Below, in pieces: positions 3,261 to 24,771 of a stretch of DNA of 38,450 bases. The notes under the pieces are model-generated. The model did no database searches. It saw only the letters and a program-made list of their open reading frames with translations, and was not told the origin of the DNA. The stretch comes from an uncultured Paracoccaceae bacterium. Lineage in GTDB: Bacteria; Pseudomonadota; Alphaproteobacteria; Rhodobacterales; Rhodobacteraceae. Numbering within the stretch: the stretch's first letter is position 1; each line of letters starts with the position of its first letter. Location: assembly GCA_947489705.1 (NCBI GenBank), contig CANLEQ010000027.1, positions 1 to 38,450 of the forward strand, read 5' to 3'. The translations under genes and the position numbers were made by a program.

Positions 3261-3322
3261 GCGACAGCCATTCTCCTCGACCCCGGGGTGTCGCCCGGTC
3301 GAGCCCGAAAGGAAAACCAGAC

Positions 3323-4621: not shown

Positions 4622-5020
4622 ATGATCGTTCGCGACCTCAATGACCTCAAGAACACCGATCGTGCCGTCAGCGATGCGCAATGGACGTCGGTCCGCATGC
4701 TGCTTGCCGATGACGGGATGGGGTTCTCCTTCCACATCACCACGCTCGCGGCCGGTTCCGAGCACGAATTCGAGTACAAGAACCACTACGAAAGCGTTTA
4801 TTGCATGTCGGGCAAGGGCTCGATCACGGACATCGCGACCGGCGAGACCCACGAGATCCGGCCGGGCGTGATGTATGCGCTGAACCTCCATGACCGTCAT
4901 ATCCTGCGCGCGGAGCAGGAGCTGGTCATGGCCTGCTGCTTCAACCCTCCGGTGACCGGCAACGAGGTGCACGGTGAGGACGGGTCCTACGCGCTGCCCG
5001 AGGAAACCGCGGCGGAATGA
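4622..5020 (+). CDS. ectC: L-ectoine synthase EctC
   Basis: Cupin-fold cyclase that closes N-gamma-acetyl-diaminobutyrate into ectoine, a compatible solute. It has 132 residues, the normal length. Family landmarks are [14 protein letters not shown] at the start, the cupin core with [38 protein letters not shown], the [11 protein letters not shown] segment with metal-ligand His, and [19 protein letters not shown] near the end. The gene follows ectB by 6 nt. No ectD (hydroxylase) or ask_ect (dedicated aspartokinase) follows; the next gene is convergent, so the locus as seen makes ectoine rather than hydroxyectoine. Confidence 0.97.
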
Positions 5021-6834: not shown

Positions 6835-7225
6835 CTTGCCCAAGCTCCCAGCGGTCCGACTGCTCGCGAGCCCGAGGGCCCGTCGGTGCCACAAGTTCAG
6901 TGTCATCAAATGCGTTTACGCGATGGTGCCGAGGGGCGCACCCGAACTCAACATCGCGGGCGGGTTATGCTTCGGTCTGTGCACCTTCTGCATCACTTGT
7001 CCGTGATGAACGGGTATGCCGGCCGGCGCCGGTGATAGCCAAAAGGTCGCGGCCGGTGCGCCCGGCGCTGCAATTGGCCGAATGCCTCGCCATGCAGGTC
7101 GCGCCGCTCCGTCAGGGCCGGGCGTTGTCCTCGCATGTGGAAACCGAATCTCAATCTTCTTGGCCGATGGGCTTGCTCGAATGTCTGGTGGGTGGCGCCC
7201 GGATATGAGCGGAAAGAGTTACGAG
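6835..7225. promoter_or_regulatory. Divergent intergenic region (mscS-like gene / chemoreceptor)
   Basis: The 391 bp between the divergent starts hold no convincing gene. It must contain promoters for both flanking genes. A GCCGAT at 7163-7168, about 60 nt before the chemoreceptor start, resembles the -10 of sigma28 (FliA) promoters, but no matching -35 is present, so no promoter is assigned. Confidence 0.3.
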
Positions 7226-9226
7226 ATGAAGATTTCACGGTTGGTTTTCGCGGCGTTCCTGGCGGTCGGCATTTTCGCCGCCGGCAAGTTCGCCCTGTCG
7301 CTGAACAATGCCTGGCAGGACTACCGCACGGTGGCGCGCATCACGGAGGCCAGCAAGGCGAACTCCGCCTGGGCGGCCGGCACCATCGCCCTGTCGTTGG
7401 AGCGGAGCGTCACGCAGGTCGCCCTGTCGCTCGAGGAACCCGTGCCGGCCGAATTCCGCGGCCTGATAGACGCGCAGCGGCAGGAAGCCGAGCGGCTCTT
7501 CGCGGACGCGATCGCGCTCGTCGAGGCTGCGCCGCAATCGCCCGGACGCACGGCCTTCCTGGCCGATTCCACGAAGTCCATCGAAGCGGTCTCCGACTTG
7601 CGAACCGAGATCGACGCCCTTCTGGCCAAGCCCGAGGGCGAACGGAACGCGCAGCGCGCAAAGGAACTGCCCTTCGAGCTCAAGCGGGAGATCTCTATCA
7701 TGAAGGCCGACGGGCTCCTCCTGACGCCGGTCAACGAATTGAGTTCCGACGTCTCGTCGGCGCTTGTCGGCGTGCAGGACAGGGCCTGGGAAGTTCGGGA
7801 ATTCGGCGGCCGGGCCCGCACCTACTACGCCATCGCGACGCTCAACGGAACGGCCATTCCCGATGGCTACGTCAACCTGATCGATGCGGACGAGAAGCGC
7901 GCAGCCACGGCCTGGACGGCCCTGAAGAACCTGGCCCTCGCAAGCGCGCTGCCGCAATCGATCGGGGATCAGGTGACGATCGGCGAGACACTCTATTTCG
8001 AGGATTACGCTGCCCTGACTGAGGCGCTCATGGATCTCTCGCAGGACGCGAACGGCGCGGCGCCGGAATACCCGATCGACTTTCCGGCCTTCTTCGAGCG
8101 GTCGAACGCGGCGCTCGACCACATGACCGCGCTATCGAACCTCGCGGGCGACGAGCTGGTCGCCTATTGGGAGGATCGGCGCACGGGCGCGCTGTGGGGG
8201 CTGGTGGCCAACTTCGCTCTCATGCTGCTCATCGTGGGCGTGATCGCCGCCGCCCTGTCGCTTCTGGGCAAGCGCCTGGTCTCCCGGCTCGAGGCGACGA
8301 CGGAGGCGCTCGAAGAACTCGCAGCCGGCAAGCTCGACGTGGAGATCGATGCACGCAAGGACGATCTGGTGGAAGTCGCGCGCCTCGTCTCCGCACTCGA
8401 AGTCTTCCGTGACAACATGCGCCGGACCGACGAGCTGCGCCGATCCTTGCAGGAGGTGCTGTCCAACGCCCTGAAGAATTCCGAATCCGTCGCAAGTGCT
8501 GCGACCGAGCTGCAGCGCTCCTCCGAGCAGATCAGCAAGGGCGCGGAATCCCAGGCCTCCTCCGCACAGGAAGCGAGCGCCGCGATCGAGGAAATGTCGG
8601 CGAGCATCGGGCAATCGGCGATCAATGCGAGCGAGACCGACAAGATCGCGACCGAGGCCTCCGCGAAGGCAAAATCATCGGGACAGGCCGTCGCCGACGC
8701 GGTGAAAGCGGTTCAGGAGATCGTGCAGAAGATCGGCGTGGTGCAGGAGATCGCCCGCCAGACCGACCTGCTGGCCCTGAACGCCGCGGTGGAAGCCGCC
8801 CGCGCGGGCCAGCACGGCAAGGGCTTCGCGGTGGTCGCGGCGGAGGTCCGCAAGCTCGCCGAGCGGAGCCAGGTCGCGGCGCTGGAAATCTCGCGGCTTT
8901 CGAGCACCACCGTCGAGGCCGCGGGCCAGGCGCGCGGACAGATCGAAGAGCTGGTTCCCGAAATCCAGCGGACGGCCGGTCTGGTGCAGGAAATCTCGGC
9001 CGCCGCACGCGAGCAGAGCGTGGGCGCGGAGCAGATCACCCGGTCGATCCGGGAACTCGATCAGGTCATCCAGCAGAACGCCTCGACCTCCGACGAGGCG
9101 CGGGATCTCGCCCGGAACCTCTCGATCCAGGCCGAGGAACTCAAGCAGACGATCGGGGAGTTCGACGCGGGCGAAAGCAACGGAGAACCCGAAAAGGACC
9201 TGCCCGCGCTGAGGCTCGTGGCTTGA
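7226..9226 (+). CDS. Methyl-accepting chemotaxis protein
   Basis: 666-residue transmembrane chemoreceptor. A first membrane helix ([18 protein letters not shown]) is followed by a periplasmic helical sensor domain of about 310 residues, which by length could be a double four-helix bundle. The second membrane helix is [20 protein letters not shown]. Then come a HAMP domain ([20 protein letters not shown]) and a coiled-coil signalling domain whose hairpin tip is [19 protein letters not shown] followed by [21 protein letters not shown]. There is no C-terminal pentapeptide for CheR docking. The start at ATG 7226 follows GGAAAGAG at 7 nt; ATG 7205 in the same frame would add 7 residues. No che genes are nearby, so it must feed a pathway encoded elsewhere. 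The ligand is unknown. The neighbouring peptide importer makes a peptide or amino-acid ligand possible but unproven. Confidence 0.92.
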
Positions 9227-9464: not shown

Positions 9465-10471
<1,007 letters not shown>

Positions 10472-10475
<4 letters not shown>

Positions 10476-11476
10476 TCGGCCGATCCTTCCACGGGCCTCA
10501 GCCGCGCCCGGCTTTCGTCGGGGAGCCAGCAGGCATGGCGATGCGCGCCGGACGACAGTTCCGGCAGCTCGGCGCAGGCGCCGAAGGCATGGGCGCAGCG
10601 CGGCCGAAAGGCGCAGCCGGCCGGCAGGTTCGACAGTTTCGGTGGCGCGCCGGGGATGGCGCTCAGCCGGTCGGGTTTTGCCCCCTCGAACGGCGGAGTC
10701 GAGCCGAAAAGCCCCCAGGAATAGGGATGCTGGGGATCGCGGAACAACGCGCGCTTCGGTCCCTGCTCGACCAGGCGGCCCGCATACATGATGCTCACGC
10801 TGTCGGCGATCTCGGCCACTACGCCCAGGTCGTGCGTCACGAGGATCAGGGACGATCCGAACGCGTCGCGCAGTTCCATCAGCAGGTCGAGCACCTGCGC
10901 CTGCACCGTCACGTCGAGTGCGGTGGTCGGCTCGTCCGCGATCAGGAGCGCCGGGTTGCACGACAGGCCCATGGCGATCACGGCGCGCTGCCGCATGCCG
11001 CCCGAAAGCTGGTGCGGATAGCGCTCGGCGACGCCGCCCGGATCGGGAATGCCGACGGTCCGCAAGAGCTCGACCGCACGGGCGCGGGCGGCGCGTCGCG
11101 AGCAGGTTTCGTGCGCGCGGATCTGCTCCACGATCTGGGTGCCGATCTTGTAGACCGGCGTAAGCGCGGTCATCGGATCCTGAAAGATCATCGCCATGTC
11201 ATTGCCCCGGATCCGGTCGAGCCCGCGGCCGCCCATGCCGATGAGCTCCTGGCCGCGGAACCGGATCGAGCCGGAGATCTCGGCGTTGGTGCTGTCGACG
11301 AGACCCATGATGGCCAGCAATGTCTGGCTCTTGCCCGATCCGCTTTCGCCGGCAAGCCCCATGATCTCGCGCTCCTCCACACGGAACGAGACGCCGCGCA
11401 CCGCCTCGACCAATCCCTCGTCCGATCGGAACCCCACGCGCAGGTCGCGGACTTCGAGAAGCGGGTCAGTCGACAT
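10472..11476 (-). CDS. Peptide-type ABC importer, ATP-binding subunit (DppD/OppD-like)
   Basis: 334-residue ATPase partner of the DppF-like subunit. Walker A is GESGSGKS (residues 43-50), the signature is LSGGMRQR (157-164) and Walker B is LLIADEP (177-183), followed by the class-typical TTALDVTVQAQVLDLL. The C-terminal extension contains GCAFRPRCAHAFGAC, the cysteine motif of peptide/nickel importer ATPases. The start ATG 11476 lies inside the end of the permease gene (11-bp overlap), and the gene's own TGA overlaps the next start. This is strong evidence for one mRNA. Confidence 0.93.
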
Positions 11477-12440
11477 CTCGGGCCCTCGGATCCAGGATCA
11501 TGTGGACGATATCGACCACGAAATTCGCCATCACGACGAAGAACGAGGCATAGATCACGGTCGCGAGGATCATCGGCAGGTCGAGCGTCAGCATCGCGTC
11601 GTAGGTGAGCTTTCCCACCCCCTGAAGCCCGAAGATCACCTCGGTCAGAAGTGCCGCCCCGCCGACGAGCGCGCCGAAATCGAGACCGAACATCGTGACG
11701 AACGCGACCAGCGAGGTCCGCAGGACGTGCCGCGTCATCACGCGCCGCTCGCCGATGCCCTTGGCGCGGGCGGTGCGGACGTAATCTTCCTGGAGCGTTT
11801 CGATCATGCTCGCGCGCAGGATCCGCCCGTAAAGGCCGATATAGAGTGTGGCGAGCACGCACCACGGGATGACCAGCACCTTGAACCAGCCCCAGGGATC
11901 CTCGCTCAGCGGGACATAGCCAAGCGCGGGGACCCAGGAAAACAGCCAGATGTCGTGAAGCCGGCTCTGGGTGACGAGGTTCGCCATCTCTCCGAGCCAG
12001 AAGACCGGCATCGAGATCCCGATGAGCGAGACGACCATCAGCGAGCGGTCGAGGAGCGATCCGCGCGTCGCTCCGGCGAGCACGCCGACCAGCAATCCGC
12101 CGAGCACCCAGAGGACCGCCGCCCCGCCCACCAGCGAGAGCGTGATGGGGATCGCGCGCAGCACCGTGGGGATGACGAGCTGACCGCGATTGACGAAAGA
12201 GGTCAGATCTCCCGTCACGAAGAGCTTTCGCATCATCAGCGTGTATTGCACGGGCAGCGGGCGGTTCAGGCCGAATTCCTCGCGCACCTGCTGCAACGTC
12301 TCCTGGCTCGCATTGCGTCCGGCGATGCGTGCCGAAGGGTCGGCGCCGGGCGTGGCGAAAAAGATCAGGAAGACCACCACCGAGATGCCGAACATCACGA
12401 GGACCATCTGACCGAGACGAGCCACGAGAGCATAGAGCAT
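11466..12440 (-). CDS. Peptide-type ABC importer, permease (DppB/OppB-like)
   Basis: 324-residue inner-membrane permease with about six helices. The N-terminal helix (LGQMVLVMFGISVVVFLIFF) is followed by the family-typical TPGADPSARIAG and the EFGLNRPLPVQY segment. The cytoplasmic EAA-type loop is seen around RTARAKGIGERRVMTRHVLR, the docking site for the ATPases. The start ATG 12440 shares one base with the TGA of the preceding permease gene. It forms the membrane channel together with the DppC-like protein. Confidence 0.92.
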   Translation of the reverse strand: MLYALVARLGQMVLVMFGISVVVFLIFFATPGADPSARIAGRNASQETLQQVREEFGLNRPLPVQYTLMMRKLFVTGDLTSFVNRGQLVIPTVLRAIPITLSLVGGAAVLWVLGGLLVGVLAGATRGSLLDRSLMVVSLIGISMPVFWLGEMANLVTQSRLHDIWLFSWVPALGYVPLSEDPWGWFKVLVIPWCVLATLYIGLYGRILRASMIETLQEDYVRTARAKGIGERRVMTRHVLRTSLVAFVTMFGLDFGALVGGAALLTEVIFGLQGVGKLTYDAMLTLDLPMILATVIYASFFVVMANFVVDIVHMILDPRARDVD

Positions 12441-13492
12441 CAGACGATCCTCACGCTGGATTTCGGATCGAATGCATCGCGCACGCCGTCGCCCAGGATG
12501 TTGAGCGTCAGGACCGTGACGGCGATGGCGATGCCGGGGGCCAGGGCGACGAGGGGTCGCGAGTAGAGCAGGCTCTGTCCGTCCTGGATGATCGTTCCCC
12601 AGCTCGCATTCGGCGGCTGTACCCCGATGGAGAGATAGGACAGCGCGCTTTCGATGATCATGGCGAGCGCCATGATGAGCGGCAGAAAGACGATGACGCG
12701 CGGAACCACGTTCGGCAGCACGTCCTTCAGCAGGATCCGCCAGGACGACGCGCCGATCCCGACCGAGGCGATGACGAATTCCGCGCTCATGAGGCTCTTG
12801 ACCTGGCCCCGGATCGGGCGCGCGACGTAGGGGATGTAGACGATGCCGATGATGAAGATCGGCAGGACGAGCGATCCGGAGCCGATCTCGACCGGACCGA
12901 TGCGCAACGTCTGGTTCAGCATCACGATCGACAGCGAGATCGCCAGCAGGAAGATCGGGAATGCCCAGAGCACGTCGAGGATGCGCGACAGGATCGTGTC
13001 GATCATCCCGCCGAAGAAACCCGCGACGGTTCCGATCGCCGTGGCGAGGACGAGGCAGATCAGGGTGGCGCTCGCGGCGATGAAGAGCGAGTTGCGCCCC
13101 CCATAAAGCAGCCGTGCGGCCACGTCGCGGCCTTGCGCGTCCGCTCCGAGCAGGTAGGGGCCGAATTCTCCCGTCGGGCCGATCGGCGTCGTGCCGAGCC
13201 CGAGACCCGTGGTCGAGGGCGCGAGGATCGGTCGGCTCTCACCGCCCACGACGATGCTGCCGCCGAGATTGGTGGTGAAGGGATCGGTGCCCGAGACCAT
13301 CTGCGCGTAGAGTGGCGCGAGCAGGCAGGCAAGCGTGATGAGACCCAGCACGATCAGCGATGCGATCGCGGCACGGTCCTGACGCAGCTTGCGCCAGGCC
13401 GTGGCCCAGGGGCTTTCGGCGACCAGCGCCGCGGAGCCGGTCCCGGGCTCCACGGCGGAGGAATCGGTCCTGGCCGATGACGATAGGTTCAC
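12440..13492 (-). CDS. Peptide-type ABC importer, permease (DppC/OppC-like)
   Basis: About 350-residue inner-membrane permease. It has a short Ser-rich cytoplasmic start, then WRKLRQDRAAIASLIVLGL leading into the first helix. A periplasmic segment of about 70 residues ends in LLGADAQGRDVAARLLYG, equivalent to the LGTDxxGRD motif of DppC proteins. The EAA loop is around SAEFVIASVGIGASSWRIL. There is no ATG at the right place. GTG 13492 has GGAG 8 nt upstream and is preferred over GTG 13498 (2 nt spacing). The open frame extends to 13645 inside the binding-protein gene, but that part is not family-like. It lies 28 nt after the binding-protein gene. Confidence 0.9.
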   Translation of the reverse strand: MNLSSSARTDSSAVEPGTGSAALVAESPWATAWRKLRQDRAAIASLIVLGLITLACLLAPLYAQMVSGTDPFTTNLGGSIVVGGESRPILAPSTTGLGLGTTPIGPTGEFGPYLLGADAQGRDVAARLLYGGRNSLFIAASATLICLVLATAIGTVAGFFGGMIDTILSRILDVLWAFPIFLLAISLSIVMLNQTLRIGPVEIGSGSLVLPIFIIGIVYIPYVARPIRGQVKSLMSAEFVIASVGIGASSWRILLKDVLPNVVPRVIVFLPLIMALAMIIESALSYLSIGVQPPNASWGTIIQDGQSLLYSRPLVALAPGIAIAVTVLTLNILGDGVRDAFDPKSSVRIV

Positions 13493-13520: not shown

Positions 13521-15182
13521 TCACTGATCGATCTGTGCCTGGCTGATGATCCAGTAGAATTGCGGCGAGAAGAGGAAGTTCTCGACACGTTCGGAAAAGA
13601 AGTCGACCCGCTTCGGCGTGAAGAGAACCGCCGCCGGGGCCGCATCCGTCACGGCCCGGTCGATCTCGGTCCAGATCTCGGCCGAGCGTTCCGGATCGCT
13701 GAGCGTGAGGCTCTCGGCCTCGTCCATCATCGCGTCGATGTCCTCGTTGCAGAAGCCCGCGATGTTCACCGAAGCGTCCGATCCCGGGGTAAAGCTGTCG
13801 CAGCTGAAGAGAACGCGCAGGAAATTGGATGGCGACGGATAGTCCTGGAACCATTGCGAGACCGACATCTGCACGTTGTTGTCCGTGTTCTGGATATAGG
13901 TGAATTGGATGTTCTGGGAAATCGGCTGGACGCTGGCGTCGTAGCCCAGCCGCGAAAGCACGTCCTGCAGATAGACCCCGATCGAGCGCGAGACGCTGGT
14001 ATCCTCCACGACGATCGTGACGTCCTGGCCCGCCGTCCCGGACTCTTCGACGAGCTGCATCGCCCGCTCCATGTCGGGTTCCTGCCACGTGTCGCTCTCG
14101 CCGGCCGTATAGGGGCAGTAGGGCTCGTAGGAGGGAAAGCCCGGCGGCAGGATCTGGCAGGCGGGCTGCGCGAGGTTCGGCCCACCGAAGAGCGAGACGA
14201 GCGCGTTGCGGTCGATGGCGTAGTTCACCGCCTGGCGCACGCGCACGTCGTCGAACGGGGCGAGGTTGGTGTTCATCGGCGCGTACCACATCGCCGTGAG
14301 CGGATGCAGCGTCACCTGTTCGGCGAACTGGTTGCCGAGTTCGGCCAGCCGGTCGGTCGGGGGCTGGTCGAACATCCAGTCGGCCTGGCCGTTCTGGATC
14401 GCCGTGACGGCCGCCGTTTCGGTCAGGCCGAAATCGTAGTTTATGGCGTCCGCATAGCCTGCGGGTTGCGCCTCCTCGCTCCATTCCTCGAAATGGGGAT
14501 TGCGCACCATCGCGAGGGTTGAATTGGGATCGTAGCTCTCGATCATGTAGGGTCCGGTGGACGGTGGCGCCTCGGTTCCCAGATCCTCCGCCGGGGTCTC
14601 GGCGGGCAGGATCGCGGCATGGGGGATCGCGATCTTCTGCAGGAACTCGCCGTCGGCTTCGGTGAGGTTGATCGTGACCGTTCCCGCCTCCTCGTCGATG
14701 ACGACACCCTCGTCGAGGCTGCACTCGTCGGGCGATTGAAGACAGGCCTCGGCTCCCACGATGTTGTTGTAGAACGTGCCGGCCGTCGGCCCCGAAACCT
14801 TGAAGATCCGCTCGAACGAAGCTTTGACGTCCTCGGCCGTCAGATCGGTGCCGTCCGAGAACTGGATCCCGTCGCGCAACTCGAACGTGTAGCTCGTCCC
14901 GTCATTGGCGGGTTCCGGGATCTCCCGGGCGAGGTCGGCCACGACCTCGAATCCCTCTGCGCCTTCGGCCTTCCGGAACGTCACGAGACCGTCGTAGAGG
15001 ATGTAGTTGAGCTGAAAATATTGCAACGTGTAGTTGATATGCGGATCTATCGTGCCTGCCGCCGCGCGCGCCAGGAGGCGCAGCGTCCCACCAGTCTGCT
15101 CCTGCGCGAGGGCGGGCGCCGCCGCGAGGCCCATCGCCAGGGCGAGAGCGGGACTGATCGTTCTGAGGGATGTGAGATGCAT
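13521..15182 (-). CDS. Periplasmic peptide-type solute-binding protein (family 5)
   Basis: 553-residue extracellular solute-binding protein of family 5 (DppA/OppA/NikA class), first gene of the importer operon. A signal peptide (LALAMGLAAAPALAQEQ) is followed by the family start GGTLRLLARAAAGTIDPHIN. The domain-I motif around FELRDGIQFSDGTDLTAEDVK is present. The middle part has PSTGPYMIESYDPN, and the lobe-closing region has NYAIDRNALVSLFGG. The start follows GGAGG at good spacing. Family 5 proteins bind di- and oligopeptides, but also opines, glutathione, nickel and other small amides, so the ligand is open. It is divergent from a LuxR-type regulator that has an adjacent iminopeptidase gene, an arrangement known from plant-signal-sensing pseudomonads. 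Confidence 0.93.
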   Translation of the reverse strand: MHLTSLRTISPALALAMGLAAAPALAQEQTGGTLRLLARAAAGTIDPHINYTLQYFQLNYILYDGLVTFRKAEGAEGFEVVADLAREIPEPANDGTSYTFELRDGIQFSDGTDLTAEDVKASFERIFKVSGPTAGTFYNNIVGAEACLQSPDECSLDEGVVIDEEAGTVTINLTEADGEFLQKIAIPHAAILPAETPAEDLGTEAPPSTGPYMIESYDPNSTLAMVRNPHFEEWSEEAQPAGYADAINYDFGLTETAAVTAIQNGQADWMFDQPPTDRLAELGNQFAEQVTLHPLTAMWYAPMNTNLAPFDDVRVRQAVNYAIDRNALVSLFGGPNLAQPACQILPPGFPSYEPYCPYTAGESDTWQEPDMERAMQLVEESGTAGQDVTIVVEDTSVSRSIGVYLQDVLSRLGYDASVQPISQNIQFTYIQNTDNNVQMSVSQWFQDYPSPSNFLRVLFSCDSFTPGSDASVNIAGFCNEDIDAMMDEAESLTLSDPERSAEIWTEIDRAVTDAAPAAVLFTPKRVDFFSERVENFLFSPQFYWIISQAQIDQ

Positions 15183-15450
15183 CGTGGCTTTCCTCCGGAA
15201 ACGGGCGTGCGCCGTGCGTCGGCAACGGCAGCGGGCACGTTCATGCCCGGTAATTAGAGGATCGGCTGCGACACCTGTAAAGCTATTAGATATGGTAGGG
15301 GCGCGTTGCCGGCCCGGTGTTCCGCCGGTGGCGTTCTCGAAGGCAGGCGGCCGCGTATTGCCGAAAGTTTCGACACCTTCTCGACCTGTGCCGCTGCCGG
15401 AGCGATGTCGAAAGTTGACACGCGTTATCGACGCGTCTCAGAACTGTCAC
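15183..15450. promoter_or_regulatory. Divergent control region between importer operon and LuxR gene
   Basis: The 268 bp hold no gene. Two similar copies of a CGAAAGTT...GACAC sequence occur, CCGAAAGTTTCGACAC near 15361 and TCGAAAGTTGACACG near 15409, spaced about 48 bp. They are candidate operator repeats. ACCTGTAAAG at 15273-15282 matches the left half of a classical lux box, but the matching right half is poor. A TTGACA at 15415-15420 lacks a good -10. Which elements are used cannot be decided by eye. Confidence 0.4.
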
Positions 15451-16224
15451 ATGCAGATCGACCTCATCGCGGCTGAGTCCCGTTTCGACACGCCCATGTC
15501 CCTCGAGAGCGCGATGGAATCCATGCATGCCATCCTCGCTCCGGCGGGCTTCGGCGCGATCGCGTATGATTTTTCGCCGGTTCCGCTCAGCCACGAGGGC
15601 AAGCTACTCGCACCCACGCTCCTGAGTCTTCGGGGCGTTCCGGACGACATGCATGACCTCTGGTGTCGCGGCGGCTATTTCGAGCGCGATCCGGTCATGG
15701 ATCTGGCGCAGATCGTCACGAGCCCGTTCTGGTGGTCTCATGGCGGACAGCAGAGCCGTCCGATGCACGACATTCTCTCCGCGCGCCACGGTCCCGTCGT
15801 CGAGTATCTTCAGGACACCCGTCTGCGCAGCGGCATCACTGTTCCCATCCGCATGGGCTCCGGCGCGCTCGCCACCTTTACCGCGATCCGGCACGGGGAG
15901 GATGCAACAGGGGTCTGCGCACAATCCTGTTTCGCGATTGGCGCGCTCGGGCGGATGTTCCACGACAGCGTGCTGCCGGGCCTCGGGCCCGAGATCCTGT
16001 CGACGCCGCATATGCGGCTGACCCCGCGCGAGCGCCAGTGCCTGTCGCTCTCGGCAGGGGGCATGACCAGCAAGCAGATCGCCGCCCGGCTCGACCGATC
16101 CTTGCCGACCGTGACGCTGCATCTGGCCACGGCCACACGGAAGCTCGGCGCGCGCAACCGCTTCCACGCCATCGCACTCGCCTGTCACTACCGGCTGATC
16201 GAGCCTGTGACATCTCATAGCTAA
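15451..16224 (+). CDS. LuxR-family solo regulator of the plant-signal-responsive (OryR/PsoR/PipR) type
   Basis: 257-residue transcription factor with an autoinducer-binding domain (about residues 15-165) and a C-terminal LuxR helix-turn-helix (190-244, LTPRERQCLSLSAGGMTSKQ onward). The invariant DNA-binding-domain residues are Glu194, Leu198 and Gly204. In the ligand pocket, positions equivalent to TraR Trp57, Tyr61, Asp70, Pro71, Trp85 and Gly113 read Met67, Trp71, Asp80, Pro81, Trp95 and Gly128. Spacings 57-61-70-85 are kept exactly. The Trp to Met and Tyr to Trp pair is the known signature of LuxR solos that answer plant compounds rather than acyl-homoserine lactones. No luxI-like synthase is present. 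A proline-iminopeptidase-like gene lies 58 nt downstream and a peptide importer is divergent, as at pipR loci. ATG 15451 lacks a strong Shine-Dalgarno; Met16 (15496) is an alternative. Confidence 0.92.
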   Translation: MQIDLIAAESRFDTPMSLESAMESMHAILAPAGFGAIAYDFSPVPLSHEGKLLAPTLLSLRGVPDDMHDLWCRGGYFERDPVMDLAQIVTSPFWWSHGGQQSRPMHDILSARHGPVVEYLQDTRLRSGITVPIRMGSGALATFTAIRHGEDATGVCAQSCFAIGALGRMFHDSVLPGLGPEILSTPHMRLTPRERQCLSLSAGGMTSKQIAARLDRSLPTVTLHLATATRKLGARNRFHAIALACHYRLIEPVTSHS

Positions 16225-16282: not shown

Positions 16283-17188
16283 ATGGGAGACTACGTCATT
16301 CGCGAGGGCTTTGCGCCTTATCAGGACTACCGCACATGGTATCGGATCTGCGGCGATCTCGACGGAGGCAAGCTGCCGCTGGTCGTGGCGCATGGCGGTC
16401 CGGGATGTACGCACGATTATGTCGACAGCTTCAGGGAGCTGGCAGACGGCGGTCGTCCGGTCATTCATTACGACCAGATCGGCAATGGACGCTCGACCCA
16501 TCTGCCGGACAAGGGTGAGGATTTCTGGACCGTCGATTTTTTCCTGGGCGAGCTCGACTCCCTGCTTGACCACCTTGGCATTGCCGATCGCTATGCCCTT
16601 CTGGGTCAAAGCTGGGGCGGCATGCTCGGGGCGGAGCACGCAGTGCGGCGACCCGCTGGCCTGCGCGCGCTCGTCATCGCCAATTCGCCCGCCTCAATGG
16701 CGCTCTGGTCCGAAGGGGCCGCGGAGCTGCGGGCCGAGCTTCCCGAAGGCGTGCGCGCCACGCTCGACCGGCACGAGGCCAATGGGACGACCGACCATCC
16801 CGACTATCTCGCGGCGCAGGATGTCTTTTACAAGCGCCATGTCTGCCGGCTGGAGCCCTGGCCTGCGGAGGTCCAGCGCACCTTCGACGCGATGGAAGAG
16901 GACTCGACCGTCTACAATGTCATGAACGGGCCCAACGAATTCCACGTCATCGGCACGATGCGAAGCTGGACCGTGATCGACCGCCTCGACCGGATCGAAG
17001 CTCCGACGCTTGTCTTCCGCGGGGCCTTCGACGAGGCGACGGAAAGCTGCGTCGCCCCCTTCCTCGAGCGGATCCCGAACGTAACCGGTCACGTCTTCCC
17101 GCGTTCGAGCCACATGCCGCATGTCGAGGAGAAGGCCGACTGCCTTGCCCTGACAGAGGACTTCCTCGCGCGTTGCGAGGCGGGATAG
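16283..17188 (+). CDS. pip: Proline-iminopeptidase-like alpha/beta hydrolase (peptidase S33)
   Basis: 301-residue serine hydrolase of the proline iminopeptidase / L-amino-acid amidase group, which removes N-terminal proline or hydrolyses amino-acid amides. The oxyanion-hole motif is HGGPG (residues 37-41). The nucleophile is Ser110 in GQSWGG, the acid Asp250 (FRGAFDEAT) and the base His277 (RSSHMPHVEE). DQIGNGRS (64-71), typical of the family, is also present. There is no signal peptide, so it should act in the cytoplasm. It follows the LuxR solo in the same direction with a 58-nt gap. In pseudomonads and xanthomonads, pip is the classical neighbour and target of this regulator type, so its substrate may be the imported signal or related plant compounds. 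The exact substrate is not visible. Confidence 0.88.
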   Translation: MGDYVIREGFAPYQDYRTWYRICGDLDGGKLPLVVAHGGPGCTHDYVDSFRELADGGRPVIHYDQIGNGRSTHLPDKGEDFWTVDFFLGELDSLLDHLGIADRYALLGQSWGGMLGAEHAVRRPAGLRALVIANSPASMALWSEGAAELRAELPEGVRATLDRHEANGTTDHPDYLAAQDVFYKRHVCRLEPWPAEVQRTFDAMEEDSTVYNVMNGPNEFHVIGTMRSWTVIDRLDRIEAPTLVFRGAFDEATESCVAPFLERIPNVTGHVFPRSSHMPHVEEKADCLALTEDFLARCEAG

Positions 17189-17425: not shown

Positions 17426-18202
17426 TCAGGCGGCCATCCAGCCGCCATCGACGAAGAGGGTATGGCCGGTCATAAAGCTGGCGTCGTCGCTTGCCAGAAA
17501 GAGCGCGGCATTGGCGACGTCCTGCGGGGTGCCGAGCCGCGGCCAGGGGGTACGGTCGCGGGAATAGTCGAGCCACCGCTTCTCGACCGCGCGGCCGCCC
17601 TTGCCGGTGAGGATCTTGCCCGGCGCCACGGCATTGCAGACGATATGGTCGGCGGCGTAATCGGCCGCGATCTGCCGCGTCATGTAGGCGATGCCCGCCT
17701 TGGAGACGCCGTAGGCGAAATCCTCGGGCGCGCTGACATGGCCGTGCTGCGACGAGATGTTGAGGATGCGGCCGCGCGCCTCGGCCACGATGTCCTGGCC
17801 GAGCATCTGGCGCAGCGCCGCCCGCGCGCAGAGATAGGCGCCCTTGAGGCTGACATCCATGACGCGGTCCCAATCGGCCTCCTCGGTCTCGAGAAGCGGC
17901 TTGCCGGCGCGCAGGACGGCGTTGTTGACCAGGATGTCGAGGCGGGGGAACCGCGCGGCGACGGCGTCGATCAGCGCCGCGACGGCGGCGGGATCGGAGA
18001 CGTCGGTGCGCATGAAATGCCCCTCGCCGCCCTCTTCGGCGATGATGTCGCAGGTGGGCCGGCCGCCCTCGATCACATCGGTGGTGATGTCGGCCACGAT
18101 GACCGCCGCGCCGTGGCGGGCGAAATGACACGCGATCGCGCGGCCGATGCCCGACGCGGCGCCGGTGACGATCGCGGTCCGGCCGCGCAGACGCCCGGTC
18201 AC
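17426..18202 (-). CDS. Short-chain dehydrogenase/reductase (SDR)
   Basis: 258-residue classical SDR, an NAD(P)-dependent alcohol/ketone oxidoreductase. Visible features are the cofactor motif TGAASGIG (residues 13-20), an Asp after the second strand (VADIT) that favours NAD, and NNA (93-95). The catalytic residues are Ser150 or Ser151 (LNISSQHG), Tyr164 and Lys168 (YGVSK). The C-terminus ends with the usual FVDGGWMA. The start is GTG 18202, overlapping the TRAP permease stop by 4 bp (GTGA), so it is translationally coupled to the transporter operon. The dehydrogenase presumably oxidises or reduces the imported compound. Its substrate is not known. Confidence 0.92.
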   Translation of the reverse strand: MTGRLRGRTAIVTGAASGIGRAIACHFARHGAAVIVADITTDVIEGGRPTCDIIAEEGGEGHFMRTDVSDPAAVAALIDAVAARFPRLDILVNNAVLRAGKPLLETEEADWDRVMDVSLKGAYLCARAALRQMLGQDIVAEARGRILNISSQHGHVSAPEDFAYGVSKAGIAYMTRQIAADYAADHIVCNAVAPGKILTGKGGRAVEKRWLDYSRDRTPWPRLGTPQDVANAALFLASDDASFMTGHTLFVDGGWMAA

Positions 18203-19503
18203 GGGAACATCCGTTGCGGCAGCCAGAGGGCGAGGCCCGGCAGGGCCACCAGAAGCGCCACCATCAGCAGCATCAGACCCGCGAAAGGCAGCGTGCCGCG
18301 CATCACCTCCTGGATCGAGCCGTGCCCGCGCACCCCCTGCACGATGAAGAGGTTCATGCCCAGCGGCGGCGTGATCAGCGCCACCTCCATCATGATGACG
18401 AGGAAGATCCCGAACCAGACGGGGTCGATGCCGAACTCGAAGACGATGGGCATGACGATCGGTATGGTGGCGATCATCATCGACAGGGTTTCGAGAAAGC
18501 AGCCGAGGAGCAGGTAGAACACCATCAAAAGCACGATGACCTCGAGCGGGCCCGAGGCGATCGATCCGACGAACCGGGTCAACGTCTGCGGAATGCCGAG
18601 AATGCCGATCACGAAGTTCAGGAATTGGGCTGCTACGACGATCAGCAGGATCATCGCCGTGATGCGCACGGTCGAGAGCAACGCCTCGTGCAGCATCGAG
18701 ATCGAGAAGCGCCGCTTGGCGATCGTCACGACCAGCGCGCCTACCACGCCGATCGCCGCGGATTCCGACGGCGTGGCCCAGCCCGCATAGATCGATCCCA
18801 TGACCAGCGCGAAGATCGCCAGCGGCGGCAGGATGTCGACGAGGTTGCGCAGCTTCTGGCGCATCGGAACCTCGTCGGGCATGATCCCGGCACGTTCGGG
18901 GCGCAGCAGGCACATGACGAGGATGTAGACCATAAAGATCAGCGCCAGAACGATGCCCGGCACGATGCCGGCGGCGAAGAGCTGTCCGATCGAGGTGTTC
19001 GACATCGATCCGTAGATGATCATGTTGATCGAGGGCGGGATCAGGATGCCGAGCGTCGAACCCGCCGCGATCGAGCCGAGCGTCAGCTGCTCGTCGTAGC
19101 GCTGCCGCTCCATCACCGGGATCGAGACGGTGCCGATCGTGGCGGCGGTCGCGACCGATGAGCCCGATACGGCGGCGAAGAGGCCGCTCGACGCGATATT
19201 GGTATGGAGCAGGCCGCCCGGCAGACGGCGAAGCCAGTCGCTGAGGCTGCGATACATGCCGTCGGCGACGCCCGAGCGGACCAGAAGCTCGCCTAGCAGG
19301 ATGAAGAGCGGGATCGCCGTGAGGATGAAGTCGTTGAGGACGCTCCAGGTCGAATTGCCGAAGATCAGGAGTGTCGGCAGCCCCAGATAGACCAGCGATC
19401 CGAGGGCCGCGGTGACGAAGAGGGCAACCGCTACCGGGACGCCTGCCAGCATCATCAGCAGCATCGCGCAGAAGCCGATGGCGACGGGGCCGAACCCGAT
19501 CAT
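18199..19503 (-). CDS. TRAP transporter large permease (DctM family)
   Basis: 434-residue integral membrane protein with about 12 helices, the ion-coupled transport subunit of a tripartite ATP-independent periplasmic transporter. Family features are the start FGPVAIGFCAMLLMMLAGVP, the DFILTAIPLFILLGELLVRSG region, SGSSVATAATIGTVSIPVM, and TLGILIPPSINMIIYG around residues 155-170. Near the end TPPLGMNLFIVQGV is seen. ATG 19503 overlaps the small-permease TGA (ATGA). The open frame extends upstream to 19608 but is not family-like there. The usual QM order is kept and the SDR gene is coupled downstream. Confidence 0.95.
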   Translation of the reverse strand: MIGFGPVAIGFCAMLLMMLAGVPVAVALFVTAALGSLVYLGLPTLLIFGNSTWSVLNDFILTAIPLFILLGELLVRSGVADGMYRSLSDWLRRLPGGLLHTNIASSGLFAAVSGSSVATAATIGTVSIPVMERQRYDEQLTLGSIAAGSTLGILIPPSINMIIYGSMSNTSIGQLFAAGIVPGIVLALIFMVYILVMCLLRPERAGIMPDEVPMRQKLRNLVDILPPLAIFALVMGSIYAGWATPSESAAIGVVGALVVTIAKRRFSISMLHEALLSTVRITAMILLIVVAAQFLNFVIGILGIPQTLTRFVGSIASGPLEVIVLLMVFYLLLGCFLETLSMMIATIPIVMPIVFEFGIDPVWFGIFLVIMMEVALITPPLGMNLFIVQGVRGHGSIQEVMRGTLPFAGLMLLMVALLVALPGLALWLPQRMFP

Positions 19504-20090
19504 CGTTCGACCCGTCGCTGGCCGAGCTGCTCGGTCTGGGCGCGCAGCTCCTCGTCCATCGTGCGGACGCCGTAGAATTGCGACAGGAGCGGCGAGCGGC
19601 GCGCGCAAAGGACGATCGCGTGCCCCGCCGTCGCCAGCGCGACCAGCGCGAAGAAGCTGAGCCCCGCGACCCAGAGCGCCTGCGGCTGCCAGAGCGGCGT
19701 CATCATCGGCGTGCCCGAGAGCGAGCCGTATTCGAGGCTTTCGAGAAGCGTCGTCCAGGCGCGCCAGGCCATGAAGACCGCCATGATCGTGATGGCGAGC
19801 ACCGAGACGAGGTCGAGCGCGCCGCGCAGCGATCCCTTCGTGCGTTCCAGCACGATCTCGACCCGCGTATGGCCGCGTTCCAGCCAGGTATGGGCGAAGC
19901 CGAAGGCCGCGAGGATGGCCAGCACGTAGCCGCCGAACTCGTCCCCGCCCTGGAGCGAGAGGTTGAGGAACCGCCGCATCAGCACCTCGACCGCAATCAG
20001 CAGCGACAGGCCCAGCACCCCGTAGCCCGCGGCGAGCGCGAAGAGGCGCGCGATGGGGCCAAGGGCGGCGTCGACGGGATTGCGCGGCAT
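19500..20090 (-). CDS. TRAP transporter small permease (DctQ family)
   Basis: 196-residue membrane protein with four helices, the small subunit that scaffolds the large permease. It begins MPRNPVDAALGPIARLFA with the first helix GYGVLGLSLLIAVEVLMRRF. The DctQ motif follows, an aromatic-Asp/Glu-Gly region (LQGGDEFGGYVLAILAAFGFA) and then LERGHTRVEIVLER. The start at ATG 20090 lies 77 nt after the binding-protein gene. The C-terminal tail is hydrophilic and Gln/Glu/Arg-rich. It is part of the minus-strand dctPQM-SDR operon. Confidence 0.9.
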   Translation of the reverse strand: MPRNPVDAALGPIARLFALAAGYGVLGLSLLIAVEVLMRRFLNLSLQGGDEFGGYVLAILAAFGFAHTWLERGHTRVEIVLERTKGSLRGALDLVSVLAITIMAVFMAWRAWTTLLESLEYGSLSGTPMMTPLWQPQALWVAGLSFFALVALATAGHAIVLCARRSPLLSQFYGVRTMDEELRAQTEQLGQRRVER

Positions 20091-20167
20091 GGGCGGGCCT
20101 TCCGGGAATGCGGGGGAGCGGAGGCCCGGCGCGGATCTGACCGGCCGGGCAGGGGGCGGCGCGGGGC

Positions 20168-21208
20168 CTATTCGATCGTCAGACCCGCCACCGAGCCCAC
20201 CGTCTCGTTCCAGGTGGCCGAGCATTCGGGATCGACGGCGTCGCAGGTCTCGCTCCAGATCGGCAAGACGACGGATTCGGCCGCCTCCTTCACCTTTTCC
20301 TGATCCGCGGGCGAGATCTCGACCATGGTCATGTCGAACTTCGTGTGGTCCGAGCAGCTCCCGTCGCCGGTATTGCAAGCGATCGCATCCTCGTTCGACG
20401 TGACGGCAAGCTCCCAGAGCTGATCCTCGAGGGCCTGGAACTCGGTCTCGAGTGCGGCCTGTTCTTCGGGGGTGAATTCGTTCCAGGTGTCGAGATTGAT
20501 GAAATGACCCTGGACCGAGCCCGAGACCGACAGCGGCAGGAAATGGGTCGTCACCTCGGGCCAGTTGCCGGTATTGCCCGAAGTGGGCGAGGTCACGCCG
20601 CACGAGACGACGCCGCGTTGCAGGGCGGGATAGACCTCGGAGAATTGCAGCGTGACGGGCGTTGCGCCGAAATGCTCCAGCATCGCCGACATCGACGGCG
20701 TGAACGAGCGGACCTTGAGGCCCTGGAGGTCGTCAACCGTCTCGATCGGGGTGTTGCAGTAAAAGACCTGCGGTCCGAACGGCCAGAGCGTGAGGACCTT
20801 GGCGTTGAACTTCTCCTGCAGGCGGGTATCGAAGACCTCGCGATAGGCGTCGACCGCCTCGTGCAGGGCTTCCATGTCGGTGGAGACGCCGATCAGGTCG
20901 AGCCCCTCGAAAAACGGATCGTCGCGCGAGGCCATGCCGATCTGGACCGACATCACGTCGAACGAGCCGCCGCGCAGCATGCGCAGGGCATCGGGCGCCT
21001 TCACGCCGACCACATCCATCGGGTTGTAGTTCACCGACAGGTCGACGCCGGACTCGGCGCCGAGATCCTCGAAGAACGCGCGCTCGATATCGACCTGCTT
21101 GGTGTTCTGCGAGAAATTGCCGGCGATGCGCAGGGGGGTCTGCGCCGACGCGCCCCCGAGCCCGGTGACGATCGAGAGGGCAGCGACCGAAAGGAACAGA
21201 CGGGACAT
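20168..21208 (-). CDS. TRAP transporter periplasmic substrate-binding protein (DctP family)
   Basis: 346-residue secreted binding protein with a clear signal peptide (MSRLFLSVAALSIVTGLGGASAQ). DctP-family landmarks include DLKGLKVR-like sequence seen as VDDLQGLKVRSFTPSMSAML, which holds the Arg that binds the substrate carboxylate. GATPVTLQFSEVYPALQRGV and WNEFTPEEQAALE follow. Four cysteines in the C-terminal third (CNTGDGSC, CDAVDPEC) could form disulfides, which is unusual for DctP proteins. The start follows GGAG at 8 nt. Ligands of this family are nearly always carboxylates, which suits the carboxylate-handling enzyme genes next door. Confidence 0.92.
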   Translation of the reverse strand: MSRLFLSVAALSIVTGLGGASAQTPLRIAGNFSQNTKQVDIERAFFEDLGAESGVDLSVNYNPMDVVGVKAPDALRMLRGGSFDVMSVQIGMASRDDPFFEGLDLIGVSTDMEALHEAVDAYREVFDTRLQEKFNAKVLTLWPFGPQVFYCNTPIETVDDLQGLKVRSFTPSMSAMLEHFGATPVTLQFSEVYPALQRGVVSCGVTSPTSGNTGNWPEVTTHFLPLSVSGSVQGHFINLDTWNEFTPEEQAALETEFQALEDQLWELAVTSNEDAIACNTGDGSCSDHTKFDMTMVEISPADQEKVKEAAESVVLPIWSETCDAVDPECSATWNETVGSVAGLTIE

Positions 21209-21517
21209 GGCATTCTCCAAATTCGTTTGCGGCGTGAAAGTGAGTGCATTCTGGTATGGCTGAGACAGGACTAGCGAGGGCACGTTCGCACCGCCAAGGA
21301 CAAGCGTCATCGCCCCCGTGATCCCCGCGACGATTGCGACAATTCTGTGCGTCCGGCGGGGATCTTGCGGTAGAACAAGGCATCTTTTGCGTGGGGCCCC
21401 GGCCACGACCGATTTCGAGAAGCGCTTGCCCGAGGGCCGGGGTTACGCAAGTAACGGGATCACCCCCACCCGCAGGCTCCGCCATCCCGGCGGCGAACAG
21501 ACGGTTTCGAGGATAAA
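21209..21517. promoter_or_regulatory. Divergent control region between TRAP operon and catabolic operon
   Basis: 309 bp without a convincing gene. It must drive both divergent operons, and a binding site for the GntR regulator encoded downstream is expected here. No clear TNGTNNNACNA-type palindrome could be identified by eye. AT-richer sequence with GAGGATAAA lies just before the plus-strand ATG and supplies its ribosome binding site. Confidence 0.35.
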
Positions 21518-22303
21518 ATGAATTCAGAAAATGTTCATGCTTCACTGCCCGCCAAACGCATCGGGATGCTCACGCCGTCGTCCAACACCGTGCTGGAGCC
21601 GTTGACGGCGCATATGCTGGCGCCCCTCGCGGCGGAGGCGAGCGTGCATTTCTCGCGCTTCCGCGTCACGCAGATCGCGCTCGACGCGGCCTCCGACGAC
21701 CAGTTCGCGCTGGCGCCGATCCTCGACGCGGCAGGGTTGCTGGCCGATGCAAAATGCGACGTGATCGCCTGGAACGGCACCTCGGCGAGCTGGCTCGGGT
21801 TCGAGACCGATGCGCGGCTCTGCGCCGCGATCACCGAGCGGACGGGTATTGCGGCCACGAGCGCGATCCTGTCGCTCAACGCGCTGCTCGAGGCGCGGGG
21901 CGTCCGCAAACTCGGGCTTGTGACGCCCTATACCTCCGATGTGCAGGACCGGATCATCGCCAATTACCGCGCGCGGGGCATCGAGACCGTCGCCGAGGCG
22001 CATAGCGGGCAGCGCGACAATTTTTCCTTTGCCGAGGTGACCGGCGAGCGCATCGAGGCCATGATCCGCGAAGTCGCCGCGAAGGGACCCGACGCGATCG
22101 CGATCGTCTGCACCAACATGCGCGGCCCGCTCGTGGCGGCGCGACTGGAGCGCGAGCTGGGCCTGCCGATCTTCGATTCGGTGGCGTTCACGCTGCTGGG
22201 CTGCCTGCAGGAAATCGGCGTCGCGAGCGACGCGCTGGCCCCGTTCGGATCGATGTTCGGGACGCAGGCTCAGGATGCTTGTCCAAGCACATCGGGGGCG
22301 TGA
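21518..22303 (+). CDS. Asp/Glu racemase-superfamily enzyme with arylmalonate-decarboxylase-like active site
   Basis: 261-residue cytoplasmic enzyme of the superfamily that holds maleate isomerase, hydantoin racemase, Asp/Glu racemase and arylmalonate decarboxylase (AMDase). It begins with KRIGMLTPSSNTVLEPLT, as in maleate-isomerase-like proteins. Two-base racemases and isomerases have a cysteine in each half. Here the first position is Gly87 in NGTSASW, while the second, Cys198 in IVCTNMRG, is kept. This Gly-Thr-Ser plus Cys arrangement, with Tyr138 in TPYTSD, matches AMDase (Gly74-Thr75-Ser76, Tyr126, Cys188). A decarboxylase or other one-base reaction on a malonate-type acid is therefore more likely than racemisation. 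It is the first gene of an operon with GntR and amidohydrolase genes, divergent from a TRAP transporter. Confidence 0.82.
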   Translation: MNSENVHASLPAKRIGMLTPSSNTVLEPLTAHMLAPLAAEASVHFSRFRVTQIALDAASDDQFALAPILDAAGLLADAKCDVIAWNGTSASWLGFETDARLCAAITERTGIAATSAILSLNALLEARGVRKLGLVTPYTSDVQDRIIANYRARGIETVAEAHSGQRDNFSFAEVTGERIEAMIREVAAKGPDAIAIVCTNMRGPLVAARLERELGLPIFDSVAFTLLGCLQEIGVASDALAPFGSMFGTQAQDACPSTSGA

Positions 22304-22307
22304 CGCG

Positions 22308-23006
22308 ATGGGGGATCCGACGCTTTCGCCCAGCAGCACCCCACCGGCGGCGCCGGGCCATCTGCACGAACACGTCATCACGAGCCTCAGGGACATGGTG
22401 CTGCGGGGTGAACTCGTTGCGGGGCGAAAGGTGCCGGAGGCGATGCTGTGCGCGCGGTTGGGCATTTCGAGGACGCCGCTACGCGAGGCGCTCAAGGTGC
22501 TTGCCGCCGAGGGCTTCGTCGCGCTGAGGCCCAATCGCGGGACCGTGGTCGTGCCGATCGACCCCGAGGGGCTGGCGCAGCTATTCGAGGTGAAGGGCGC
22601 GCTCGAACGCCTGATCGGGCTCTGCCTTCCCGACCGGATCGACGTGGACGCGCTCGCGCGGATCGAAGCGCTGCACGGCGAAGCGCGCGCGGCGATGGAA
22701 GCCGGAGACATGCATAGCTATACAAGGGGCAACCATGCCTTTCACGAGGCCCTGGCGGCCGGCACCCGGAACGACGCGCTGATGCAGACCTATTCGGGGC
22801 TTCAGCAGAAGATCCTGCGTGCGCGATACGCGGTCAATGCGCAGCCCGAGCGCCTGCGCCGCTCGATGGCTGACCACGAGCGGATCATGGCCATGCTGCG
22901 GGCGGGCGCCGCGCTCGACCTCGCGCGATGCCTCGAAGAGCACAGCCGGCACACCGGGCAGGCCATGCTGCGGCAACTCAGACGGCAGGAGACAGCGAAG
23001 GAATGA
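22308..23006 (+). CDS. GntR-family transcriptional regulator (FadR subfamily)
   Basis: About 232-residue repressor-type regulator. The N-terminal winged helix (HVITSLRDMVLRGELVAGRK, then LGISRTPLREALKVLAAEGF and the wing RPNRGTVV) is followed by an all-helical FCD effector domain. The latter carries metal or ligand-binding positions such as His in NHAFHEAL and His in ADHERIM. ATG 22308 lies 4 nt after the upstream stop; ATG 22275 would overlap the upstream gene by 29 bp. Its stop overlaps the amidohydrolase ATG (ATGA). FCD regulators usually sense a carboxylate from the pathway they control, so it likely governs this operon and the divergent TRAP operon. Confidence 0.92.
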   Translation: MGDPTLSPSSTPPAAPGHLHEHVITSLRDMVLRGELVAGRKVPEAMLCARLGISRTPLREALKVLAAEGFVALRPNRGTVVVPIDPEGLAQLFEVKGALERLIGLCLPDRIDVDALARIEALHGEARAAMEAGDMHSYTRGNHAFHEALAAGTRNDALMQTYSGLQQKILRARYAVNAQPERLRRSMADHERIMAMLRAGAALDLARCLEEHSRHTGQAMLRQLRRQETAKE

Positions 23007-24436: not shown

Positions 24437-24771
24437 CTGTTCGATGTGAGGTGAGGCATAACGGGTACCACGCAGACGCGGCGGGCCGTGAGCCGCACGT
24501 TTGCGAGACGGGCAGCCTCATACTGCCCTCGGCGGGCAACTCTCCGCCGGGGCCTCCTTCAACGGCATCCGAACCGTCGGCAGGCCCGGGCAATGGCACT
24601 GATCCCGTCACTTCTGCCCGGCGCACGGGAAGCCGTTCGCCTTCGTTCAGTACTGCCAGTGGGACATTTCGTCTCGCGCCGCGCAGCGGTCGAACCACAC
24701 CGTCTCCCCCGACGTTGCGTGTTGGCTGGTGTCGGTTTCGGCACCGTTTCTCCAGACCGGGGGCAATCCTT
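24437..24771. other. Intergenic region before the type III PKS operon
   Basis: 335 bp with no convincing gene. Although the PKS frame is open upstream to GTG 24451, its translation here is Pro/Ser/Arg-rich and unlike any PKS. Two hairpins, given separately, may end the amidohydrolase operon. A promoter for the PKS operon is expected, but no good -35/-10 pair was found. Confidence 0.45.
24510..24548 (+). terminator. Tandem hairpins after the amidohydrolase operon
   Basis: GGGCAG (24510-24515) pairs with CTGCCC (24523-24528) over a 7-nt loop. GGCGG (24531-24535) pairs with CCGCC (24544-24548). They are adjacent, about 75-110 nt after the amidohydrolase stop, and lack a T-tract. Weak terminator candidates. 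Confidence 0.3.

Follow-up and report, generated by a model that had tools for sequence, protein, structure and literature searches.

The importer operon, luxR and pip at the locus

The window, by which we mean the whole stretch of 38,450 nucleotides analysed, is the entire contig C27 of a 4.34 Mb genome in 156 contigs. It carries a luxR gene with a pip gene directly downstream and, on the divergent side, a five-gene operon for a peptide-type ABC transporter that runs from 15182 down to 9465 in the order SBP, permease, permease, ATPase, ATPase; both the operon and pip were absent from the initial annotation, as were the two putative LuxR boxes and the Met at pocket position 73 described below. 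The features discussed below are these.

3257-4615: ectB
4622-5020: ectC
7016-9226: chemoreceptor gene
9465..10475, minus strand: Opp/Dpp ATP-binding protein 2 (PF00005, PF08352; assumed start, the open frame reaching 10961)
10472..11476, minus strand: Opp/Dpp ATP-binding protein 1 (PF00005, PF08352)
11466..12440, minus strand: OppB/DppB-type permease (PF00528, PF19300)
12440..13414, minus strand: OppC/DppC-type permease (PF00528, PF12911; assumed start, the open frame reaching 13645)
13521..15182, minus strand: SBP of type B (SBP_bac_5), 553 aa, divergent from luxR (PF00496, E 5.2e-73)
15283..15298, no strand assigned: putative LuxR box 1, CTATTAGATATGGTAG, in the region between the divergent luxR and SBP genes
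15451..16224, plus strand: luxR solo of the PAB (OryR/NesR/PipR) group, 257 aa (from domains, alignment and tree)
16205..16220, no strand assigned: putative LuxR box 2, CTGTGACATCTCATAG, just ahead of the luxR stop
16283..17188, plus strand: pip, proline iminopeptidase-family alpha/beta hydrolase, 301 aa (TIGR01250)

The 257-aa product of luxR contains an Autoind_bind domain (E 3.8e-19) and a GerE domain (E 5.2e-14), both of which exceed the Pfam cut-offs. An AlphaFold2 model of the protein, built from a 7-row alignment, has a mean pLDDT of 84.3 and finds its best fold matches among LuxR receptors (QscR, E 2.2e-14), with TM scores against full-length LuxR receptors of only about 0.45-0.6 and a pocket that the model does not resolve. 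The Pip protein scores 251 bits against TIGR01250 (cut-off 167.65) and 442 bits against PDB 7a6g, and contains the motifs GQSWGG at 108, FDEAT at 249 and SSHMPH at 275, the catalytic roles of which we assume from the family.

The luxR gene had been described as lying beside ectoine genes; ectB and ectC are indeed present, but the chemoreceptor gene and the transporter operon separate them from luxR. The proximity to ectoine genes appears to be incidental, because sites within one mismatch of the LuxR box described below occur only at the two positions flanking luxR, and regulation of the ectoine genes was rejected as there is no near-match of the box there. On the other side of the locus, the stretch 17426-23006 (SDR, the TRAP transporter genes DctM, DctQ and DctP, EutA-like and GntR-type regulator genes) forms a catabolic cluster with little conservation across the genus, the best relatives of the TRAP permease DctM being just 47-50% identical and found in 4 of 13 other genus genomes. 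Farther along lie a probable small polyketide cluster (24451-27685), with a type III polyketide synthase, a methyltransferase and a geranylgeranyl-reductase-like FAD enzyme encoded consecutively, and an IS21-like istA/istB transposase pair (31144-33370).

Within the genus, luxR occurs in one of 14 genomes and ectB in three of 14 (at E 1e-150), and two ectB relatives have no gene of the module in roughly 18 kb beyond ectC. No clean insertion site was found among these 14 genomes, and a search of a phage collection gave no match. The GC content of the module is 0.657 against 0.658 for the rest, and thus there is no compositional sign of recent transfer.

An unpaired receptor of the OryR/NesR/PipR group

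The genome encodes four LuxI-type synthases and five Autoind_bind proteins. Four of the five LuxRs have a luxI no more than about 1 kb away, on contigs C3, C7, C23 and C29, while the window LuxR is the fifth, on a contig without luxI, and so is unpaired within a cell carrying AHL synthase genes. In three of the four paired LuxRs (loci L001-L009), the match to the Autoind_bind profile is confined to positions 36-133.

Homologues were collected from samples holding one genome per species. Matches to the window LuxR were obtained in 8 of 394 family genomes, its own included (E <= 1e-30), in 5 of 385 class genomes (E <= 1e-35) and in 12 of 398 phylum genomes (E <= 1e-40); at least 56% LuxR identity was seen only in its own genome and three others of the 394. 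Two short peptide patterns run against the genomes of 84,980 species added 7 loci, of which L031 was dropped since its match covers the DNA-binding part only, and nine LuxR loci on plasmids were examined out of 153 records.

The resulting LuxR tree has 41 rows, with the near copies L097 and L099 and the duplicates L026 and L066 excluded. The window protein falls in a 31-row clade (support 99/95) in which the majority of rows are pip-linked, and which also holds proteins from R. etli and Rahnella, the Trp/Trp rows, taken to be from pseudomonads, and a NesR-like protein of S. meliloti that, judging by its gene context, is presumably NesR itself; OryR, XccR, PsoR and PipR are absent by name from the tree. 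Eight AHL receptors served as references, namely TraR (twice), SdiA, one rhizobial luxI-adjacent LuxR and the genome's own four LuxI-paired LuxRs, and these stand apart from the clade at 92/89, a support below star level, with several of them on long branches. The window LuxR is not placed within the AHL receptors; a position among them would have spoken against the initial annotation.

That annotation had rested on the ligand pocket, and Met67, Trp71, Asp80, Pro81, Trp95 and Gly128 do occupy, by translation and alignment, the pocket places assigned to them. The translation further gives V82, M83, E194, L198 and G204, and V116 and L120 are additional pocket residues. M67 and W71 fall on the Trp and Tyr of the AHL receptor CviR in a phmmer alignment, and in the 41-row alignment positions 57 and 61 (TraR numbering) are W/Y in all eight reference receptors and M/W in the window, whereas D70, W85 and G113 are retained. 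Among the 33 non-reference rows, the window included, M/W occurs in 27, W/W in three, L/W in two and W/Y in one; the Met/Trp signature is conserved among homologues and is no chance spelling. PipR had been listed among the proteins that replace Trp/Tyr by Met/Trp 'or similar', which holds for Trp at 61 but not at 57, where PipR retains Trp (PMC4981722).

The specificity patch of these receptors has been defined as positions 57, 61, 73, 101 and 105 (PMC3821632), and Table 1 of the same paper gives, for the published PAB set, M57 in 13 of 18 proteins, and W61 and Gln73 in 18 of 18. The window LuxR agrees with this set in M57, W61, V101 and L105, but has Met (M83) instead of Gln at position 73, an assignment that is safe because the window sequence runs ungapped from position 70 to position 73. 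The same Met73 is found in its seven nearest relatives (G239, G255, Oceanicella, Tropicimonas, Cohaesibacter and two MAGs), and Gln73 in the remaining 23 of the 31 rows of the clade. Gln73 is typical of PAB proteins, though it is not a defining criterion in the accessible text of papers on the group.

Members of the group are recognised by M57/W61, a neighbouring pip and clustering with known members (PMC10134790, PMC4338825). The window protein combines W57M/Y61W with an adjacent pip, clustering in the tree, no cognate luxI and a CT(N12)AG motif near pip, and has Met and Trp where an AHL receptor would have W57 and Y61. On tree, pocket and adjacent pip it belongs to the published OryR/NesR/PipR group of PAB LuxR solos, as its description as a LuxR solo of the plant-signal-receptor type had anticipated. 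The accompanying idea that a Rhodobacteraceae member extends the taxonomic range of the group was rejected as novelty, being already in print: the XccR/OryR group in Table 3 of a 2015 survey (PMC4338825) includes Rhodobacter sp. and Citreicella sp., recorded there with W57M/Y61W and a pip/transporter context, and a 2023 review (PMC10134790) counts Rhodobacter, Aureimonas and Shinella among its members.

A further LuxR solo type with Leu/Trp at 57/61 occurs in L023 and on plasmid pRA01 of Roseicitreum antarcticum (L066, 5275-9274), where the neighbours of luxR are RraA, aldolase, pip and nitrilase genes, with no peptide transporter of either type found. L100 (9482-10240, genome G1091) encodes a Met/Trp PAB-type LuxR, and in 20 kb neither pip nor one of the two peptide transporter types was detected. 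On a plasmid of Shinella sp. HZN7 (L067, 8938-11359), a D-aminopeptidase gene replaces pip downstream of a PAB luxR, and a pip-family gene is present only on the divergent side. A LuxR-Pip fusion suggested by a 601-residue frame in L055 was rejected, the open frame being 261 aa.

Putative LuxR boxes and type-B operons without luxR

A simple search for 20-bp dyads was of little use alone, though one hit, in locus L025, led to the box pattern CTATnAGATnTnATAG (CTAT-N8-ATAG-like), which was initially recognised by eye in the window and L025. At two mismatches or fewer, with both strands read, the window has two sites against 0.05 expected, and these sites, 15283-15298 and 16205-16220, each have one mismatch on the better strand. 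Across the 4.3 Mb genome the same two are the only matches within one mismatch, and a reversed control gave none. Measured from box centre to gene start, box 1 precedes the SBP gene by 108.5 bp and luxR by 160.5 bp, and box 2, which reads CTGT-N8-ATAG, precedes pip by 70.5 bp. A published motif for pip boxes is CT(N12)AG (PMC4471428), and the outer CT(N12)AG of box 2, a predicted site, matches it. A looser half-site pattern, CTRT-N8-AYAG, was discarded as unspecific (16 matches against 12.5 expected).

The pattern recurs at related loci. Over 28 LuxR loci (537,180 bases) there are 35 sites of at least 11/13, all 35 within 153 bp of luxR, and such a strong box is present in 22 of the 28 loci and missing from six. 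When the window was left out, a motif search in 24 loci returned CTAT-N8-ATAG as the commonest gapped palindrome near luxR (18 loci; next best, 9), and a matrix made from these window-free sites ranks the two window sites first, at 15.61 and 12.76, with the next at 2.49. For comparison, 100 mononucleotide shuffles of the window gave best scores with a median of 5.29 and a maximum of 18.65; their 95% level, 12.78, is exceeded by site 1 and narrowly missed by site 2.

Type-B transporters also occur without the regulator. A close type-B SBP (E <= 1e-100) is present in eight of 295 family genomes, five with luxR and three without, and at E <= 1e-170 only in the window's own genome and one other of 372 class genomes. 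We found eleven type-B operons without a PAB luxR within the stretch read (7.5 to 20 kb), in Shinella, Acidiphilium, Rhizobium, Sinorhizobium sp. BG8, A. vitis and others, with SBPs 49-64% identical to that of the window. Ten of the eleven have pip, a leucyl aminopeptidase or both beside them; in the eleventh, locus L105, the sole candidate is a Pip-like match of 25%, some 7 kb distant. Type B therefore looks like a peptide-scavenging module, which is joined to the LuxR-pip core at two separate places on the SBP tree, although LuxR-free operons may also have arisen by loss of LuxR. Such a peptide-uptake module of Alphaproteobacteria, without LuxR and with leucyl aminopeptidase and/or pip, is seen in L059 (6396-14487), L065, L060, L061, L063, L064 and L050-L053.

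The box separates the two kinds of operon. Within 350 bp upstream of the type-B SBP gene the best score is 10-12/13 in 7/7 LuxR-linked loci and 7-9 in 11/11 LuxR-free ones. Where pip lies ahead of the SBP gene, this stretch is not the first promoter of the operon, which makes the figure for 3 kb upstream the fairer one: 11-12 in 7/7 LuxR-linked loci and 9-10 in the 10/10 LuxR-free loci scanned, three of which reach 10/13. Over whole LuxR-free loci, two sites of 11/13 or better were found (L061, L064), several kb from the SBP start. The loci L028 and L029, in which the transporter lies downstream of pip, have no box upstream of the transporter. The difference between LuxR-linked and LuxR-free type-B operons offers an in-silico test for uptake systems captured by a LuxR.

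Importer exchange and a proposed local circuit

The window importer differs from that of the classical loci. The SBP of the classical R. etli locus matches AapF (7kz8) at E 7.1e-237, whereas AapF ranks 31 of 38 (E 2.3e-13) for the window SBP, whose preferred match is 8upi (E 1.8e-49); the window type-B transporter is not orthologous to the AapBCDEF transporter of the PipR system. Compared by neighbourhood, the 28 LuxR loci comprise seven of type B, the window's, and 21 of type A (Aap), the type-A label of L029 depending on a permease gene that the contig end truncates; L021, L023, L024, L030, L056, L057 and L100, with more distant LuxRs or neither transporter, were counted apart. The permease order of the window is conserved in type-B operons. 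A tree of 17 type-B and six type-A SBPs splits the two types at 100/100, and the LuxR-linked type-B SBPs form one six-row clade (100/99), apart from that of L022, which lies among the LuxR-free operons.

On the LuxR tree, transporter type changes between A and B at least four times, gains and losses not being polarised, and type-B linkage to LuxR recurs in Aureimonas with a different gene order. The pip tree (41 rows, with loci lacking a whole pip and several near copies excluded) repeats the LuxR tree inside the window clade, where the type-A loci L028 and L029 are nested among type-B rows, and groups the pip of L022 with the classical ones (99/97). As the LuxR and pip trees agree while type-A and type-B rows mix, LuxR and pip travel together while the importer changes, which suggests that the LuxR-pip pair is the constant core and the importer an exchangeable module. 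More tentatively, and at somewhat less than an even chance, PAB circuits in general may be modular, the LuxR-peptidase core having repeatedly replaced its importer with an unrelated one of a sort that occurs in peptidase-linked nutrient operons, each under the same LuxR box, with the Q73M sub-clade (Rhodobacteraceae, Cohaesibacter) responding to a ligand other than that of the rhizobial and Pseudomonas systems, possibly a marine or saline one. No prior report of a type-B importer in PAB loci or of Q73M was found in the accessible open-access literature, and the non-orthologous importer, Q73M and a box upstream of both transporter and peptidase appear new.

From the family, pocket residues, synteny, transporter non-orthology, and box placement and rarity computed above, we infer a ligand class, activation, a direction of regulation and feedback that together would make up the following circuit. 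The divergent transporter would import a small peptide-like or amino-acid-amide-like compound, which would bind LuxR in a pocket unsuited to AHLs; LuxR would then bind the two CTAT-N8-ATAG-like boxes and turn on both the transporter operon, giving more uptake, and pip, whose product would cleave the compound or its relatives and so end the signal, with regulation confined to the two operons flanking luxR. We give a probability of roughly 0.72 to this reading of the locus, a PAB LuxR solo running a closed, local import-sense-degrade circuit with an exchangeable importer. A peptide or amide ligand is proposed because the importer family and Pip both act on such compounds. We take 8upi to be an SBP for L-amino-acid amides, 7a6g to be an L-proline amide hydrolase and HEHEAA, going by its name, to be an N-substituted acetamide of the glycinamide kind; if these identities are correct, each of them speaks for amide-like ligands. 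HEHEAA has been reported for one PAB member, and a close transporter homologue elsewhere reportedly does not bind it (PMC10134790), while the PAB member PsrR is reported to be unresponsive to rice root macerate, ethanolamine and HEHEAA (PMC7301841), which counsels caution against ready generalisation of the ligand class. The import-sense-degrade order itself is drawn by analogy with Pseudomonas sp. GM79, where the response requires the transporter and peptidase mutants over-respond (PMC4981722).

Other readings of the same genes have to be weighed against this circuit. The protein could be an ordinary quorum-sensing receptor for AHLs of its own cell or its neighbours, the Met/Trp pocket being incidental, in keeping with the four synthases in the genome, a model fold that matches AHL receptors and the retained D70, W85 and G113. 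Yet 57 and 61 are both altered, 105 is Leu instead of Ala, the tree sets the protein apart from all eight AHL references, its locus is one with pip and a transporter, and OryR and PipR are reported to be unresponsive to AHLs (PMC4981722); on pocket, tree and context we rejected this reading as very unlikely. The proposal that a non-AHL molecule is sensed has accordingly held up, the protein being very probably no AHL receptor given its pocket, its separation from the AHL references and its unpaired state; a plant, seaweed or algal origin of that molecule, also proposed there, is one possibility that the sequence neither favours nor disfavours. The importer might also be a chance neighbour of a LuxR that controls pip alone, or genes elsewhere, as could be argued from the XagR locus, which in Table 1 of PMC10134790 has neither transporter type nearby, and from L021, L030 and L100, likewise with neither type nearby. 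The box scores within 350 bp of the SBP gene, higher in every LuxR-linked locus than in any LuxR-free one, and the recurrence of the linkage in Aureimonas in another gene order make this most improbable.

A nutrient switch is a weightier alternative, in which LuxR would sense any imported peptide or amide and control its own catabolic operon, with no interkingdom message. It is favoured by the peptidase-linked type-B operons that do without LuxR (10 of 11 loci) and by near-matches of the box that occur in the genome only at the luxR locus. Relatives of the window locus, moreover, come from Tropicimonas, Oceanicella and Cohaesibacter, which are marine or saline genera. PipR responds to protein hydrolysates and to Ser-His-Ser (PMC4981722). 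Plant-associated PAB relatives, on the other hand, respond to plant macerates and affect colonisation (PMC10134790, PMC4981722), and the same core may serve both roles; we regard the nutrient switch as possible but lean against it. Testing both importer families against one ligand library should name the signal class through their overlap, and a sub-clade with another importer and another patch residue provides a direct comparison on the ligands of the PAB group.

The most similar loci, in Tropicimonas isoalkanivorans, Oceanicella sp. SM1341 and the genomes G239 and G255, for which no paper was found in the open-access literature, share both the gene order and Met73 of the window, with identities of 55-58% for LuxR, 77-78% for the SBP and 73-77% for Pip. 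The LuxR-free type-B operons share the five-gene transporter of the window (truncated after the fourth gene in L050), but have no PAB LuxR in 7.5-20 kb and no box of 10/13 or better within 350 bp of the SBP gene. The PipR-AapA-F-PipA system of GM79 resembles the window in combining a LuxR solo, pip and a peptide ABC importer, and in having an inverted repeat ahead of pipA centred at -71.5, about 71 bp before the gene and comparable with box 2 at -70.5 (PMC4981722); it differs in that PipR keeps Trp57 where the window has Met (PMC4981722), and in an AapF-type transporter (7kz8) to which the window SBP is just remotely similar. The NesR-type rhizobial loci (S. meliloti Ak57, R. etli p42b) share with the window a Met/Trp LuxR, a downstream pip, a divergent peptide transporter and CTAT-N8-ATAG boxes on both sides. 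Their transporter is of the Aap type, with AapA as second peptidase and the SBP gene in last position. In the window, whose LuxR is 36% identical to that of R. etli, the SBP gene comes first, AapA is absent, the transporter is of the non-orthologous type B and Met replaces Gln73.
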